NCBI RefSeq assembly: GCF_003353065.1
Contig: NZ_CP027806.1
Span: 372,001-436,000, forward strand
Direction of reading: 5' to 3'
Length of the DNA: 64,000 bases
From: Cyclonatronum proteinivorum
Lineage (GTDB): Bacteria; Bacteroidota; Rhodothermia; Balneolales; Cyclonatronaceae
Each line of letters starts with the position of its first letter. Positions within the stretch are counted from its first letter, which is position 1. A model generated the notes under the pieces. The model had not been told where the DNA came from and made no database searches. It worked only from the letters and a program-made list of their open reading frames with translations. This document shows positions 1,445 through 61,788 of this stretch, piece by piece. The position numbers and the translations under genes were made by a program.

Positions 1445-1676
1445 TAACCCGCATTATTCACCAAGAAATTTTCTTGCTGGCAAGGCGAATCTGAAAACTG
1501 AGCGGAAGGGTACCTAAGTACCCTGAGCATGAGTTTTCAGATTCAACGCCGCCAGCGGGGAAATTTCGCAGTCTTTACACCACACTCAAATTTGGGCTAC
1601 CGGTTTTTTTTAGCTAAGCCTAATGTAACTCATACTTAGCAAATAAATCCTGTTTAACTGTGAATAATGCGGGTTA
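1445..1676 (+). mobile_element. MITE-like palindromic element, copy A
   Basis: This is a full-length copy of the TA-flanked element. It starts TA then ACCCGCATTATTCAC and ends with the inverse of that 15-mer followed by TA. The core from about 1466 to 1568 folds into one long imperfect hairpin with the near-palindrome GGGTACCTAAGTACCC at its tip. The stem here reads AATCTGAAAACT against AGTTTTCAGATT. It encodes no protein. It fills most of the 457-nt gap between the divergent PAS gene and the HD gene; the rest (1358-1444 and 1677-1814) shows nothing I can name beyond AT-rich promoter-like sequence near 1680-1710. Confidence 0.85.
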
Positions 1677-2387: not shown

Positions 2388-2475
2388 TTATTTTTTTGGG
2401 AAAACCCCGTGAACATCAGGGGGTACGGGGTAGTTTGAAAGATCCCAAGCCTAAGATGGGTCCCTTGCTTTTTGG
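2388..2475 (+). repeat. Dispersed 90-bp repeat R2, copy 1
   Basis: The unit runs from TTTTTTTGGGAAAACCCCGT through GAACATCA to CCTAAGATGGGTCCCTTGCT and a final TTTTTGG. The same edges recur at 26655, 26825, 40731, 46015, 50236 and 61467. It is non-coding and lies between the converging HD and ThuA genes. Confidence 0.75.
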
Positions 2476-11641: not shown

Positions 11642-11652
11642 CTGGAGTTTGG

Positions 11653-13008
11653 CTAAGTTCTGATGCTAATCATGGCCGATAAAGCCGGGTTTAGCAGTTT
11701 TAGGTGGTTCTGCTTTCGGTACCTTTTGTTCATGAAGCCGTCAAAACTCACCCCTATGGCTTTGCTGTAGTATTCCGCCCTGAAGCGGTTACAAATGTCT
11801 CCTGTCGTCCACCTGCTGTTTTCTTTCTCGGGGTACCACTTGGCACGTTGCAGCATTTGGACCGGTGGATCATTCTGCCTGCTGCAGTGTTCAGCGGCAA
11901 GCAGTAACAGACTGTACACCGCTGTAACAAACTTAGGTACACCTTCGGCGGAGTGCTGGTTGCGCACCTGTGCCTGCCCGCAGCCCATCAGGGTTTTCTG
12001 CTCTCGAAAGTTGACTTCAATCTCCCAGCGCCAAACATAAGCCTGAAGCAGGGTTTGCAGCGGTAACTTCAGGTCATTGGTTATCAGAAAGGCGGGTTTA
12101 CGGTACAACAGGTTCGCCCCTTTAGCCAAGCGGTACCCAAGAGGACTGATAATAATAAGCTTGAGTAGCTGGTGCCCGCCCGCAGGCTTCCACTTAACGT
12201 TTTCTACTACCTTTAATTTAAACTCGTGCTCCTTGCCTGCCGCGAAAGCTTTGACCTTCTGCCAGCTTACCTGATCACTGGTACGAATCTGGTCCGGAGT
12301 TAACTTAGGCTCCCCGTACAAGCGCCGCCGCCCTGTGTCAGGCTGGTCAGCAGGTGGATCATAGATTTTAGCGTCTTTGCGGACCCTGCCGATGAAGGTT
12401 GTATGCGCCGGCAAGTTTTGGATTACTTCGCGATTGGTATACCCCCCATCAAAACTTACAAGCAGGTGACGTGAGGCTGATCCCAACTCGTTGAGGCGCT
12501 GGCGCAATGAACCCACCAGCTTTGCGCCAACACAGCTTATCCTGCTTTTCTTTTTAGCTTCTTTGTAAGCGTCCTTTTGCAGCTGATCCGCATTACGGCC
12601 GGGTTTAACCGGCATGGGCGCATGGACAAAACTCACCGGTATACTCCGTGCCTGACAAAGCTGCGAAGAGGCCGGGCAGGCGATACTGGCCTGTACAAAG
12701 CGCTGTGCCCAGATAAAATTGGTGTGGAAAGCGGGTCCAAGCGGGTCTCGCTGCCATTTCGCACCATGTACTTTGCGTCCTGTTTTTTTCAGCAGGGTAT
12801 CGTCGATATGGGCAATGACCGGAGCGTTGTCAGGCGCCAGGCTGACATCCAGCAGGTCCTGCGGGTCAAAGCGCTGCTTGCTGAACATCCGGTAAGCGGC
12901 CGTCCAGTCACAGAACTGGTTGCCGCTACCGCTCAGCATGCCTGTGAGCGTGCGCTTACCGCCACAATTAACCAGACCGTAGGCAAGATCGTGTACCAGT
13001 CTTTGCAT
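11653..13008 (-). CDS. IS4-family DDE transposase
   Basis: A 451-residue transposase from the ATG at 13008. The DDE triad is Asp69 or Asp70 (AHIDDTLLKK), Asp187 (SFDGGYTN) and Glu331; the last lies in the IS4 signature Y324-x2-R327-x3-E331-x6-K338. The reading frame extends 5' of this ATG without a stop to TAA at 13090-13092, adding in-frame coding-like residues (LTSQFDSLLHE) but no ATG, GTG or TTG. The preceding AbrB-like gene ends in the +1 frame across a nine-A run, so the transposase may be made partly as a -1 frameshift fusion. It ends with TAG in the terminal repeat. Confidence 0.88.
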   Translation of the reverse strand: MQRLVHDLAYGLVNCGGKRTLTGMLSGSGNQFCDWTAAYRMFSKQRFDPQDLLDVSLAPDNAPVIAHIDDTLLKKTGRKVHGAKWQRDPLGPAFHTNFIWAQRFVQASIACPASSQLCQARSIPVSFVHAPMPVKPGRNADQLQKDAYKEAKKKSRISCVGAKLVGSLRQRLNELGSASRHLLVSFDGGYTNREVIQNLPAHTTFIGRVRKDAKIYDPPADQPDTGRRRLYGEPKLTPDQIRTSDQVSWQKVKAFAAGKEHEFKLKVVENVKWKPAGGHQLLKLIIISPLGYRLAKGANLLYRKPAFLITNDLKLPLQTLLQAYVWRWEIEVNFREQKTLMGCGQAQVRNQHSAEGVPKFVTAVYSLLLLAAEHCSRQNDPPVQMLQRAKWYPEKENSRWTTGDICNRFRAEYYSKAIGVSFDGFMNKRYRKQNHLKLLNPALSAMISIRT

Positions 13009-13064
13009 TTTGGGCGTCAGTTTACTGTGAGTGGATTCGTGGAGCAGGCTGTCAAACTGGCTTG

Positions 13065-13271
13065 TCAGCGCGTTTGAGGCAGTTTTTTTTTAAGGCTGCT
13101 GACGAGTTTGGCGTCGCGCTTAAGAACCATATGCTGCTGGTCATCGATGATCCATTCGATGGTTTCGCCTTTTTGGAATTCCATAGCTTCAGCCACGGCG
13201 GCAGGCATATTGACATACCACTGCTGGCTGGCTTTGCGGTCGATGCGTTGAATTTTGGTAGGATAGCCCAT
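13065..13271 (-). CDS. AbrB/SpoVT-like small DNA-binding protein in the IS
   Basis: A 68-residue protein with the swapped-hairpin AbrB/MazE pattern: IQRIDRKASQQWYVNMP, an EAMEF helix, FQKGETIEW and a VLKR strand. Such proteins bind DNA as dimers. It lies inside the insertion sequence just before the transposase. The coding sequence crosses A9 at 13083-13091 (codons CTT AAA AAA AAA CTG) and stops 8 codons later at 13065. A backward slip of one base on the A run would enter the transposase frame. It may control transposase level or bring end binding to the transposase. Confidence 0.7.
   Translation of the reverse strand: MGYPTKIQRIDRKASQQWYVNMPAAVAEAMEFQKGETIEWIIDDQQHMVLKRDAKLVSSLKKKLPQTR
13083..13091 (-). 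promoter_or_regulatory. Nine-A slippery run, candidate -1 frameshift site
   Basis: On the coding strand the bases are CTT AAA AAA AAA CTG in the AbrB frame. The -1 frame reads AAA AAA ACT GCC TCA and runs on, open, into the transposase. Runs such as A AAA AAA are standard slippery sites in insertion sequences. The -1 frame has a TAA directly before the run, so frameshifting is the only way to translate the 27 codons upstream of Met1 unless CTG is used as a start. Confidence 0.5.
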
Positions 13272-13403
13272 ATGCGGTAGGATTTAAGAATAATCTAGTG
13301 ATATAACTAGGTAATAATATCCTAAAAAATCCGGTCATATGCATCATAGACCGGGATTTTTTTTACGAAAAACTCAAAAATACAAGCAAAAGCCAAACTC
13401 CAG

Positions 13404-13573
13404 AGGGTACCTAAGTACCCTGAGCATGAGTTTTAAGCTTCAACGCAGCCAGCGGGGAAATTTCGCCGTCTTTACACCATACTCAAATTTGGGCTACCGG
13501 TGTATTTCACTAAGCCAAATTTAAATATACATTTAGCAAATAAATCTTGTTTAATTGTGAATAATGCGGGTTA
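13404..13573 (+). mobile_element. MITE-like palindromic element, copy B (left part lost to the IS)
   Basis: Only the right 168 bp plus TA remain. It begins at AGGGTACCTAAGTACCC, the hairpin tip, directly at the IS right end, and ends with GTGAATAATGCGGGT followed by TA. The left arm and left end are missing. The final TTA (13571-13573) is the complement of the stop codon of the neighbouring glutamate dehydrogenase gene. The remaining bases 13272-13403 belong to the IS right end and hold no gene. Confidence 0.85.
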
Positions 13574-19922: not shown

Positions 19923-20182
19923 TAGCCCGCATTATTCACAATTTAACAGGATTTATTCGCTAAATCTTTGTTTAAATATGGCTTAGTGAAAAACACCGGT
20001 AGCCCAAGTTTGAGTGTGGTGTAAAGACGGCGCACCGAGCGAAGCGATTCCCACGAAGTGAAATTTCCCCGCTGGCTGCGTTGAAGCTGAAAACTCATGC
20101 TCAGGGTACTTAGGTACCCTTCCGCTGAGTTTTCAGCTTCGCCTTGCCAGCAAGAAAATTTCTTGGTGAATAATGCGGGTTA
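19923..20182 (-). mobile_element. MITE-like palindromic element, copy C (with 28-bp extra block)
   Basis: Full copy in reverse orientation with TA on both sides and both 15-bp ends. It is 260 bp rather than 232 because about 28 bp (near 20030-20057, GCACCGAGCGAAGCGATTCC and following) are added beside the base of the large hairpin. Its stem reads GAAGCTGAAAACTCA against TGAGTTTTCAGCTTC. It lies in the 723-nt gap between the Rrf2 gene and the transporter. The rest of the gap (20183-20538) shows no gene; an AT-rich stretch at 20430-20460 may hold the transporter promoter. Confidence 0.85.
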
Positions 20183-23240: not shown

Positions 23241-23472
23241 TAGCCCGCATTATTTACAATTAAACAGGTTTTATTTGCTAAACGTAAGTTTAAGTTTGGC
23301 TTAGCGAAAAACACCAGTAGCTCAAATTTGAGTATGGTGTAAAGACTGCGAAATTTTCCCGCTGGCGGCGTTGAAGCTATAAACTCATGCTCAGGGTACT
23401 TAGGTACCCTTCCGCTGAGTTTATAGCTTCGCCTTGCCAGCAAAAAAATTTCTTGGTGAATAATGCGGGTTA
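23241..23472 (-). mobile_element. MITE-like palindromic element, copy D
   Basis: Full 232-bp copy in reverse orientation, TA on both sides, 15-bp ends with one change (TTTAC for TTCAC) at the left. The stem reads GAAGCTATAAACTC against GAGTTTATAGCTTC: two adjacent pairs differ from the other copies on both arms at once, keeping the pairing. Confidence 0.85.
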
Positions 23473-26654: not shown

Positions 26655-26742
26655 GTTTTTTTGGGTGAATCCCGTGAACATCACTGGCAGCCGGTGCATG
26701 TCAGGGTCTCCCAAACCTAAGATGAACTCCTTGCTTTTTGGG
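26655..26742 (+). repeat. Dispersed 90-bp repeat R2, copy 2
   Basis: From GTTTTTTTGGGTGAATCCCG through the CCGTGAACATCA core to CCTAAGATGAACTCCTTGCT. It faces copy 3 (26825-26912) in opposite orientation across 82 bp. Confidence 0.7.
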
Positions 26743-26824
26743 AAGCCGTAAACGCATTACCGTGTTTTGAACAGCATATTTTTTAGAGCTGAAATGGGTC
26801 GGGCTGAAAGCACTGTTTCCATCA

Positions 26825-26912
26825 CCCAAAAGCAAGGGACCTGTCTTAGGCTTGGGGGCCCGGAACCTGCCCCAGAAGACCTTGATGTTCACGGAGTTTT
26901 CCCAAAAAAATA
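26825..26912 (-). repeat. Dispersed 90-bp repeat R2, copy 3
   Basis: From CCCAAAAGCAAGGGACCTGT through TGATGTTCACGGAGTTTTCC to the A run. With copy 2 it makes an inverted pair in the 635-nt gap between the DUF885 gene and the broken kinase. Bases 26501-26654 and 26913-27135 hold no gene; a small hairpin GGTGC-ATTTTTTC-GCACC lies near 27103-27122. Confidence 0.7.
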
Positions 26913-37459: not shown

Positions 37460-37630
37460 TTTTCCGGCAGAAAGCGCAAAGCAAAAAGCAGGGGATTTTG
37501 AGTTGGCTTATGAAGCCTGAAACAGCACTGCAGCCCGTGATGCTCCGGGAGTTTCCCCCAAAAAAACTGCGCGGGAATGAGCAGGGAAGCCGTGTTCCTG
37601 GTTCACAAGCAGCTCCATTTTATTTTTGTG

Positions 37631-40730: not shown

Positions 40731-40819
40731 CAAAAAAGCAAGGGACCTATCTTTGGTTTGGGGTTTCTGATCTGCCACGAAAGACCTTGATGTTCACGGA
40801 GTTTTACCCAAAAAATAAA
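40731..40819 (-). repeat. Dispersed 90-bp repeat R2, copy 4
   Basis: From CCAAAAAAGCAAGGGACCTA to TGATGTTCACGGAGTTTTAC and the A run. It lies between the divergent XRE and TPMT genes. Confidence 0.75.
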
Positions 40820-46014: not shown

Positions 46015-46085
46015 CTTTTTGGGATGAACTCCGTGCACATCACTGGGTTTCGTGCTTGTGAGAGATCCCAAATCGGCGGAGTGTT
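46015..46085 (+). repeat. Dispersed repeat R2, copy 5 (diverged)
   Basis: GGGATGAACTCCGTGCACAT then CACTGGGTTTCGTGC and GAGAGATCCCAAATCGG. It matches the left half of the unit and a similar fragment at 23529-23580; the right half is unlike. The gap 45931-46214 has no gene. Confidence 0.45.
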
Positions 46086-46214
46086 CCGTGGTTTTTTTGG
46101 GGATGTTGGCGCTACCTGCCAAACCAACCTGAATAAACATGGCTTAATCCAGAGAATTGTCTGATTGGTTGCGCTAACCAAGTAAGGAATTCGGATTATG
46201 CTGAAATCAAACGA

Positions 46215-50235: not shown

Positions 50236-50327
50236 ACCAAAAAGCAAGGGATTCAAATTATGATTTGGGAACGCTAATCTGCCACGAAAGACCGTGATGT
50301 TCACGGAGTTTCCCCCCAAAAAAAATA
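50236..50327 (-). repeat. Dispersed 90-bp repeat R2, copy 6
   Basis: From ACCAAAAAGCAAGGGATTCA to CCGTGATGTTCACGGAGTTT and the A run. The core CCGTGATGTTCACGG is a perfect palindrome around a 3-nt centre. It fills most of the 344-nt gap between lipB and the alanine-dehydrogenase-like gene; nothing else is seen there. Confidence 0.75.
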
Positions 50328-61466: not shown

Positions 61467-61788
61467 GTTTTTTTTGGGGAAAACCCCGTGAACATCACGG
61501 TCTTTCGCAGAAGATCAGCGCCCCCAAACCTAACCCGCATTATTCACCAAGAAATTTTCTTGCTGGCAAGGCGAAGCTGAAAACTCAGCGGAAGGGTACC
61601 TAAGTACCCTGAGCATGAGTTTTCAGCTTCAACGCAGCCAGCGGGGAAATTTCGCAGTCTTTACACCACACTCAAATCCGGGCCGCCAGTGTCTTTCGCT
61701 AAGCCAAATTTAAACTTACATTTAGCAAATAAATACTGTTTGATTGTGAATAATGCGGGCTAAGATAGGTCCCTTGCTTTTTGGTTTG
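61467..61788 (+). repeat. Dispersed repeat R2, copy 7, split by MITE-like copy E
   Basis: The left part 61467-61530 runs from TTTTTTTTGGGGAAAACCCC through CCGTGAACATCACGG (perfect palindrome) to CCCCCAAACC; the right part 61763-61788 continues AGATAGGTCCCTTGCTTTTT. The break at TA equals the place where copies 2 and 1 read CCTAAGAT without interruption. The full gap 61446-61823 holds this and copy E only. Confidence 0.8.
61531..61762 (+). mobile_element. MITE-like palindromic element, copy E
   Basis: Full 232-bp copy in forward orientation: TA then ACCCGCATTATTCAC at 61531, mirrored at the right as GTGAATAATGCGGGC then TA. The stem reads AAGCTGAAAACTCA against TGAGTTTTCAGCTT. It interrupts repeat R2; the TA at each side is a duplicated target. 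Confidence 0.88.

Follow-up and report, generated by a model that had tools for sequence, protein, structure and literature searches.

Toward the end of a 64,000-nucleotide stretch of the Cyclonatronum proteinivorum genome, the whole of which is referred to here as the window, two repeats lie one inside the other: a copy of the intergenic repeat R2 and, within it, a MITE (copy E), the pair being flanked by a GAF-domain gene on one side and, in convergent orientation, by a gene for a helix-hairpin-helix protein on the other. The arrangement raises the questions of which repeat was there first, what kind of element was inserted, and what is likely to have moved it.

Matching of the 88-column R2 core profile with nhmmer recovers R2 at 61469-61784 in two pieces interrupted by copy E (Table 1), and these pieces share exactly profile positions 63-66, which are the duplicated CTAA. 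When the flanks are joined with the MITE and one CTAA removed, the halves align as one unit, gap-free over R2 positions 2-87, at 91.0 bits (E 7.5e-30) compared with 62.2 for the left half and 16.3 for the right. A preliminary description of the locus had placed the MITE, with a target duplication, inside a pre-existing R2, and the split profile and gap-free rejoining bear this out; the uninterrupted copies that it had seen near 2388 and 26655 (the first two R2 copies in Table 1) do run through CCTAAGAT. That recombination between repeats, instead of transposition, brought the R2 halves and the MITE together is barely conceivable: both repeats are abundant and there is an IS-associated rearrangement nearby, but the 4-bp duplication is precise, the ends of the insert are perfect, and R2 is free of gaps once the insert is taken out.

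Table 1. Repeats, mobile elements and their parts in the window (coordinates are window positions).
Feature	Position	Strand	Remarks
MITE copy, 226 bp	1448..1673	+	
R2, uninterrupted	2390..2475	+	66.7 bits
R2, uninterrupted	26657..26741	+	56.0 bits
R2, uninterrupted	26826..26911	-	79.3 bits; inverted pair with 26657-26741
R2, weaker copy	37482..37566	-	39.5 bits
R2, uninterrupted	40731..40816	-	93.7 bits
R2, weaker copy	46015..46095	+	29.8 bits
R2, uninterrupted	50237..50323	-	77.2 bits
MITE remnant	13404..13570	-	broken off by the IS701-like insertion sequence at 11642-13403
MITE copy, 254 bp	19926..20179	-	TTAG duplication
MITE copy, 226 bp	23244..23469	-	TTAG duplication
R2 copy 7, left part	61469..61533	+	profile positions 2-66, left CTAA included; nhmmer E 2e-18, 62.2 bits
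Target-site duplication CTAA, left	61530..61533	+	
MITE copy E, IS1380-type ends, 226 bp	61534..61759	+	CCCGCATTATTCAC...GTGAATAATGCGGG, CTAA both sides
Left terminal inverted repeat, 14 bp	61534..61547	+	CCCGCATTATTCAC
Conserved hairpin adjoining left end	61544..61654	+	AAGGC / AACGNAG internal loop; covariance model R1, 68.6 bits, E 1.3e-12, with the source genome in the training set
Right terminal inverted repeat, 14 bp	61746..61759	+	GTGAATAATGCGGG
Target-site duplication CTAA, right	61760..61763	+	
R2 copy 7, right part	61760..61784	+	profile positions 63-87, right CTAA included; nhmmer 16.3 bits alone

The unit of duplication has to be read from other copies of the element. At 61469-61784 alone, CCTAAGAT is restored either by TA and a 228-bp element or by CTAA and a 226-bp element, and a single locus therefore cannot separate the two. 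The first of these, CC-TA-element-TA-AGAT, is equally valid at this one place, and TA does stand at the center of YTAR (TTAA, CTAA, TTAG, CTAG); it would make copy E a TA-duplicating, IS630/Tc1-mariner-like MITE. Among the 56 two-ended copies read in the source genome, however, 44 carry an exact 4-bp duplication (TTAA 18, CTAA 11, TTAG 10, GTAG 2, CTAG 1, TCAG 1, ATAG 1), YTAR in 40 of the 44, and positions 1-4 match from left to right in 49, 53, 53, and 52 of the 56, respectively. The bases outside TA differ among copies (T/C/G; A/G) yet agree left to right, so they belong to the target and not to the element. Duplication of TA only is thereby excluded, a 4-bp duplication sets the element apart from IS630/Tc1-mariner MITEs and, with ends that are moreover IS1380-like, such a membership is highly improbable. 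Insertion with duplication, as originally proposed, therefore stands, with CTAA (4 bp, consensus YTAR) in place of TA as the duplicated unit and 226 bp in place of 228 bp as the length of the element. Copy E has perfect 14-bp inverted ends and is too short for a transposase gene.

R2 has roughly two hundred candidate sites in the genome and, among 59 genomes searched, occurs only in the source genome and one other of the same genus. In the latter, G005, a first look gave 67 candidate places, 16 of which were confirmed (identity ~76-90% across the parts that matched), and the MITE end pattern gave no hit; the other four same-genus genomes gave no R2 match, and related MITE ends are present in some of them. 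At the present site R2 is older than the MITE, as had been claimed, because its halves flank the MITE, and the distribution, with R2 present in G005 without MITE ends, also supports this order. A search for the orthologous empty site in G005 found no ortholog-level match to three neighboring proteins in 15 stretches around R2 copies. Only 1 of the 56 MITE insertions lies within R2, roughly the number that the share of intergenic DNA taken up by R2 would give on a rough estimate; R2 is not obviously targeted, and the nesting thus needs no special mechanism. R2 is often found in inverted pairs (26657-26911 in the window; L360, L365, L367, and L368 in G005), and the nearest upstream gene was on the strand of R2 in 27 of 35 copies examined.

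The inserted element is short, with inverted ends, a target duplication, and many dispersed copies, and as such is a MITE. Its ends have 217 matches in the genome at no more than one mismatch, and the number of elements suggested is in the region of 100. The 226-bp copies have a mean identity of 89% and depart from their consensus by 3-16%. Identity reaches 98% among 13 copies of the MES10 type, whose duplications are mostly TTAA; the MES10 lineage was therefore active recently. Three loci (L142, L146, and L157) hold pieces of ~38 bp in which two MITE-type ends make up nearly the whole length; their 4-bp flanks match or nearly match.

Related elements, most of them 210-255 bp long and flanked by TTAA/YTAR duplications, are found in Balneolales, Persicobacter, Brumimicrobium, Saprospiraceae, and Bacteroidales. 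Elements that share the design and duplicate YTAR are present in the family and order of the source genome as well as at loci whose titles name Persicobacter, Brumimicrobium, Saprospiraceae, Salinivirgaceae, and Bacteroidales, and in some Balneolales genomes both ends are jointly changed to the CCCGGATTTCTCAC/GTGAGAAATCCGGG type. Searches of plasmids, phages, and viral contigs gave no match. On one Persicobacter contig (L209:2256-3793), 14 tRNA genes are arrayed beside a MITE. A second Persicobacter locus (L304:1376-2992) carries a 1617-bp element bounded by TTAA-CCCGAATTATTCAT...ATGAATAATTCGGG-TTAA that encodes an IS1380 transposase (NCBIfam NF033539, E 8e-99; Pfam PF13701, E 1e-122). Ends and duplication are thus common to the MITE and an IS1380-family element, the full-length match resting on this one insertion sequence, and a Saprospiraceae genome holds a degenerate IS1380 fragment with similar ends and TTAG/TTAA flanks.

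IS1380-type mobilization is the best-supported mechanism because the Persicobacter IS1380-family element matches the MITE in its ends and duplicates TTAA. We infer from the ends and duplications that an IS1380-family transposase moved copy E; the source genome yielded no IS1380 whose ends match. There, no autonomous partner was seen among the MITE-type ends read, which are part of the total, and no element of more than 500 bp with MITE ends was found among the ends read in the source genome and Balneolales loci. The six IS1380-family copies of the source genome have other ends (CCTCAATCCGTGAG) and 5-7-bp duplications where these are readable, which makes them unlikely movers of the MITE; no PF01609 transposase locus in that genome is bounded by MITE-type ends. 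A different family that duplicates 4 bp at YTAR might instead have supplied the transposase. IS701 has a 4-bp YTAR preference and IS701-like elements are present in the source genome, where the want of an IS1380 with matching ends also counts in favor of such a source, but the IS701-like copies read have CTGGAGTTTGGC at their ends and are inserted at palindromes, with a palindrome left on each side, and the one full-length element in which MITE-type ends and a TTAA duplication were found together encodes IS1380. We consider mobilization by such a family unlikely, and the IS701-like elements themselves mismatch the MITE in their ends and, where readable, their duplications. The history that we regard as very probable is that a MITE with IS1380-type ends inserted in a cut-and-paste-like manner into an R2 already present between the GAF and helix-hairpin-helix genes. 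A transposase acting in trans would recognize the CCCGCATTATTCAC ends and make cuts in CCTAAGAT within R2 that are staggered by 4 bases at CTAA, a sequence that fits the YTAR target, and repair of the gaps would duplicate CTAA.

One MITE in the window has itself been interrupted. The IS701-like insertion sequence at 11642-13403, on the minus strand, lies inside the hairpin of this MITE, part of which remains beside it (Table 1). The IS701-like copies L108 (~326 kb) and L110 (~384 kb), which are in opposite orientation, each have half of a MITE on one side and a flank of a different palindrome on the other, an arrangement such as a ~58 kb inversion between both would leave. At L108, L109, L111, L112, and L113 the IS701-like element adjoins other palindromes, for example GTGCCCCTACAGGGCAC and TCGACCCTTTCAGGGTCGC, and several of these copies have a palindrome copy on both sides.

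The nesting itself is ordinary, and the interesting part is the conserved hairpin. Folding of 16 elements placed a stem of ~100 nt next to one end in most of those with this design. When 14 hairpins taken from several lineages are aligned, AGGC and AACG are invariant and the stems vary in a compensatory way: 93.3% of cells are paired, 80 cells are changed on both sides (25.5 in shuffles), 17 of the 24 pairs have changed on both sides, and the covariation score is 0.686 compared with 0.293 for shuffled and at most 0.197 for slid alignments. With strict filters and a cutoff of E 0.001, a covariance model matched 15 of 394 genomes of the phylum, every one of them from the order or class of the source genome; the more distant matches are loci fetched by end sequence, several of them in the training set, and the distribution of the hairpin is therefore wide but patchy. 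Rfam at gathering score gave chance-level matches only in the window region and tRNAs only in 18 related loci. Template switching or gene conversion, which homogenizes imperfect palindromes, would also yield covariation; the fixed loop bases argue for something beyond such homogenization, short of proof of function. That the hairpin is a conserved functional module of IS1380-ended mini-elements across Bacteroidota, either a structured RNA or a binding site in folded DNA, and not a by-product of inverted repeats, is a tentative proposal that we hold to be somewhat doubtful; if true, these elements would not be simple deletion derivatives but would make up a class of structured passengers.

Two repeat families can be dated cleanly relative to each other from this nesting, which also fixes the exact duplication. 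A family of MITEs that combines IS1380-type ends with a covarying hairpin of fixed internal loops, and that occurs in several lineages of Bacteroidota, would offer a natural experiment in what non-autonomous elements carry besides their ends. No paper describing IS1380 MITEs or the MITE end sequences was found in the open-access literature. R2 resembles REP/BIME-type intergenic repeats in being short, intergenic, high in copy number, and at times arranged in inverted pairs, but differs in its restriction, among the 59 genomes searched, to the source genome and a single congener. Prokaryotic MITEs are short, non-coding, mostly intergenic, and hairpin-forming, with inverted ends, target duplication, and many copies (PMC10969869), and the MITE described here has all of these traits. 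Unlike those reviewed, however, the related elements span several families with one hairpin architecture and conserved internal loops, and the terms IS1380, TTAA, and Bacteroid- do not occur in that review (PMC10969869). With the IS1380 family (NF033539, PF13701) the MITE has in common CCCGAATTATTCA-type ends and TTAA duplication, as in the Persicobacter element, but it has no transposase gene, and the covariance model found no match to its hairpin inside the Persicobacter insertion sequence, the one full-length example examined. The IS1380 family comprises distant bacterial relatives of piggyBac. The piggyBac elements have a 4-bp TTAA duplication, occasionally CTAA/TTAG, and ends starting CCC (PMC10813416). 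The MITE is alike in both respects, whereas piggyBac is eukaryotic and related to it through the IS1380 transposase family only; the MITE family would lend itself readily to tests of IS1380 (piggyBac-like) transposition in trans.
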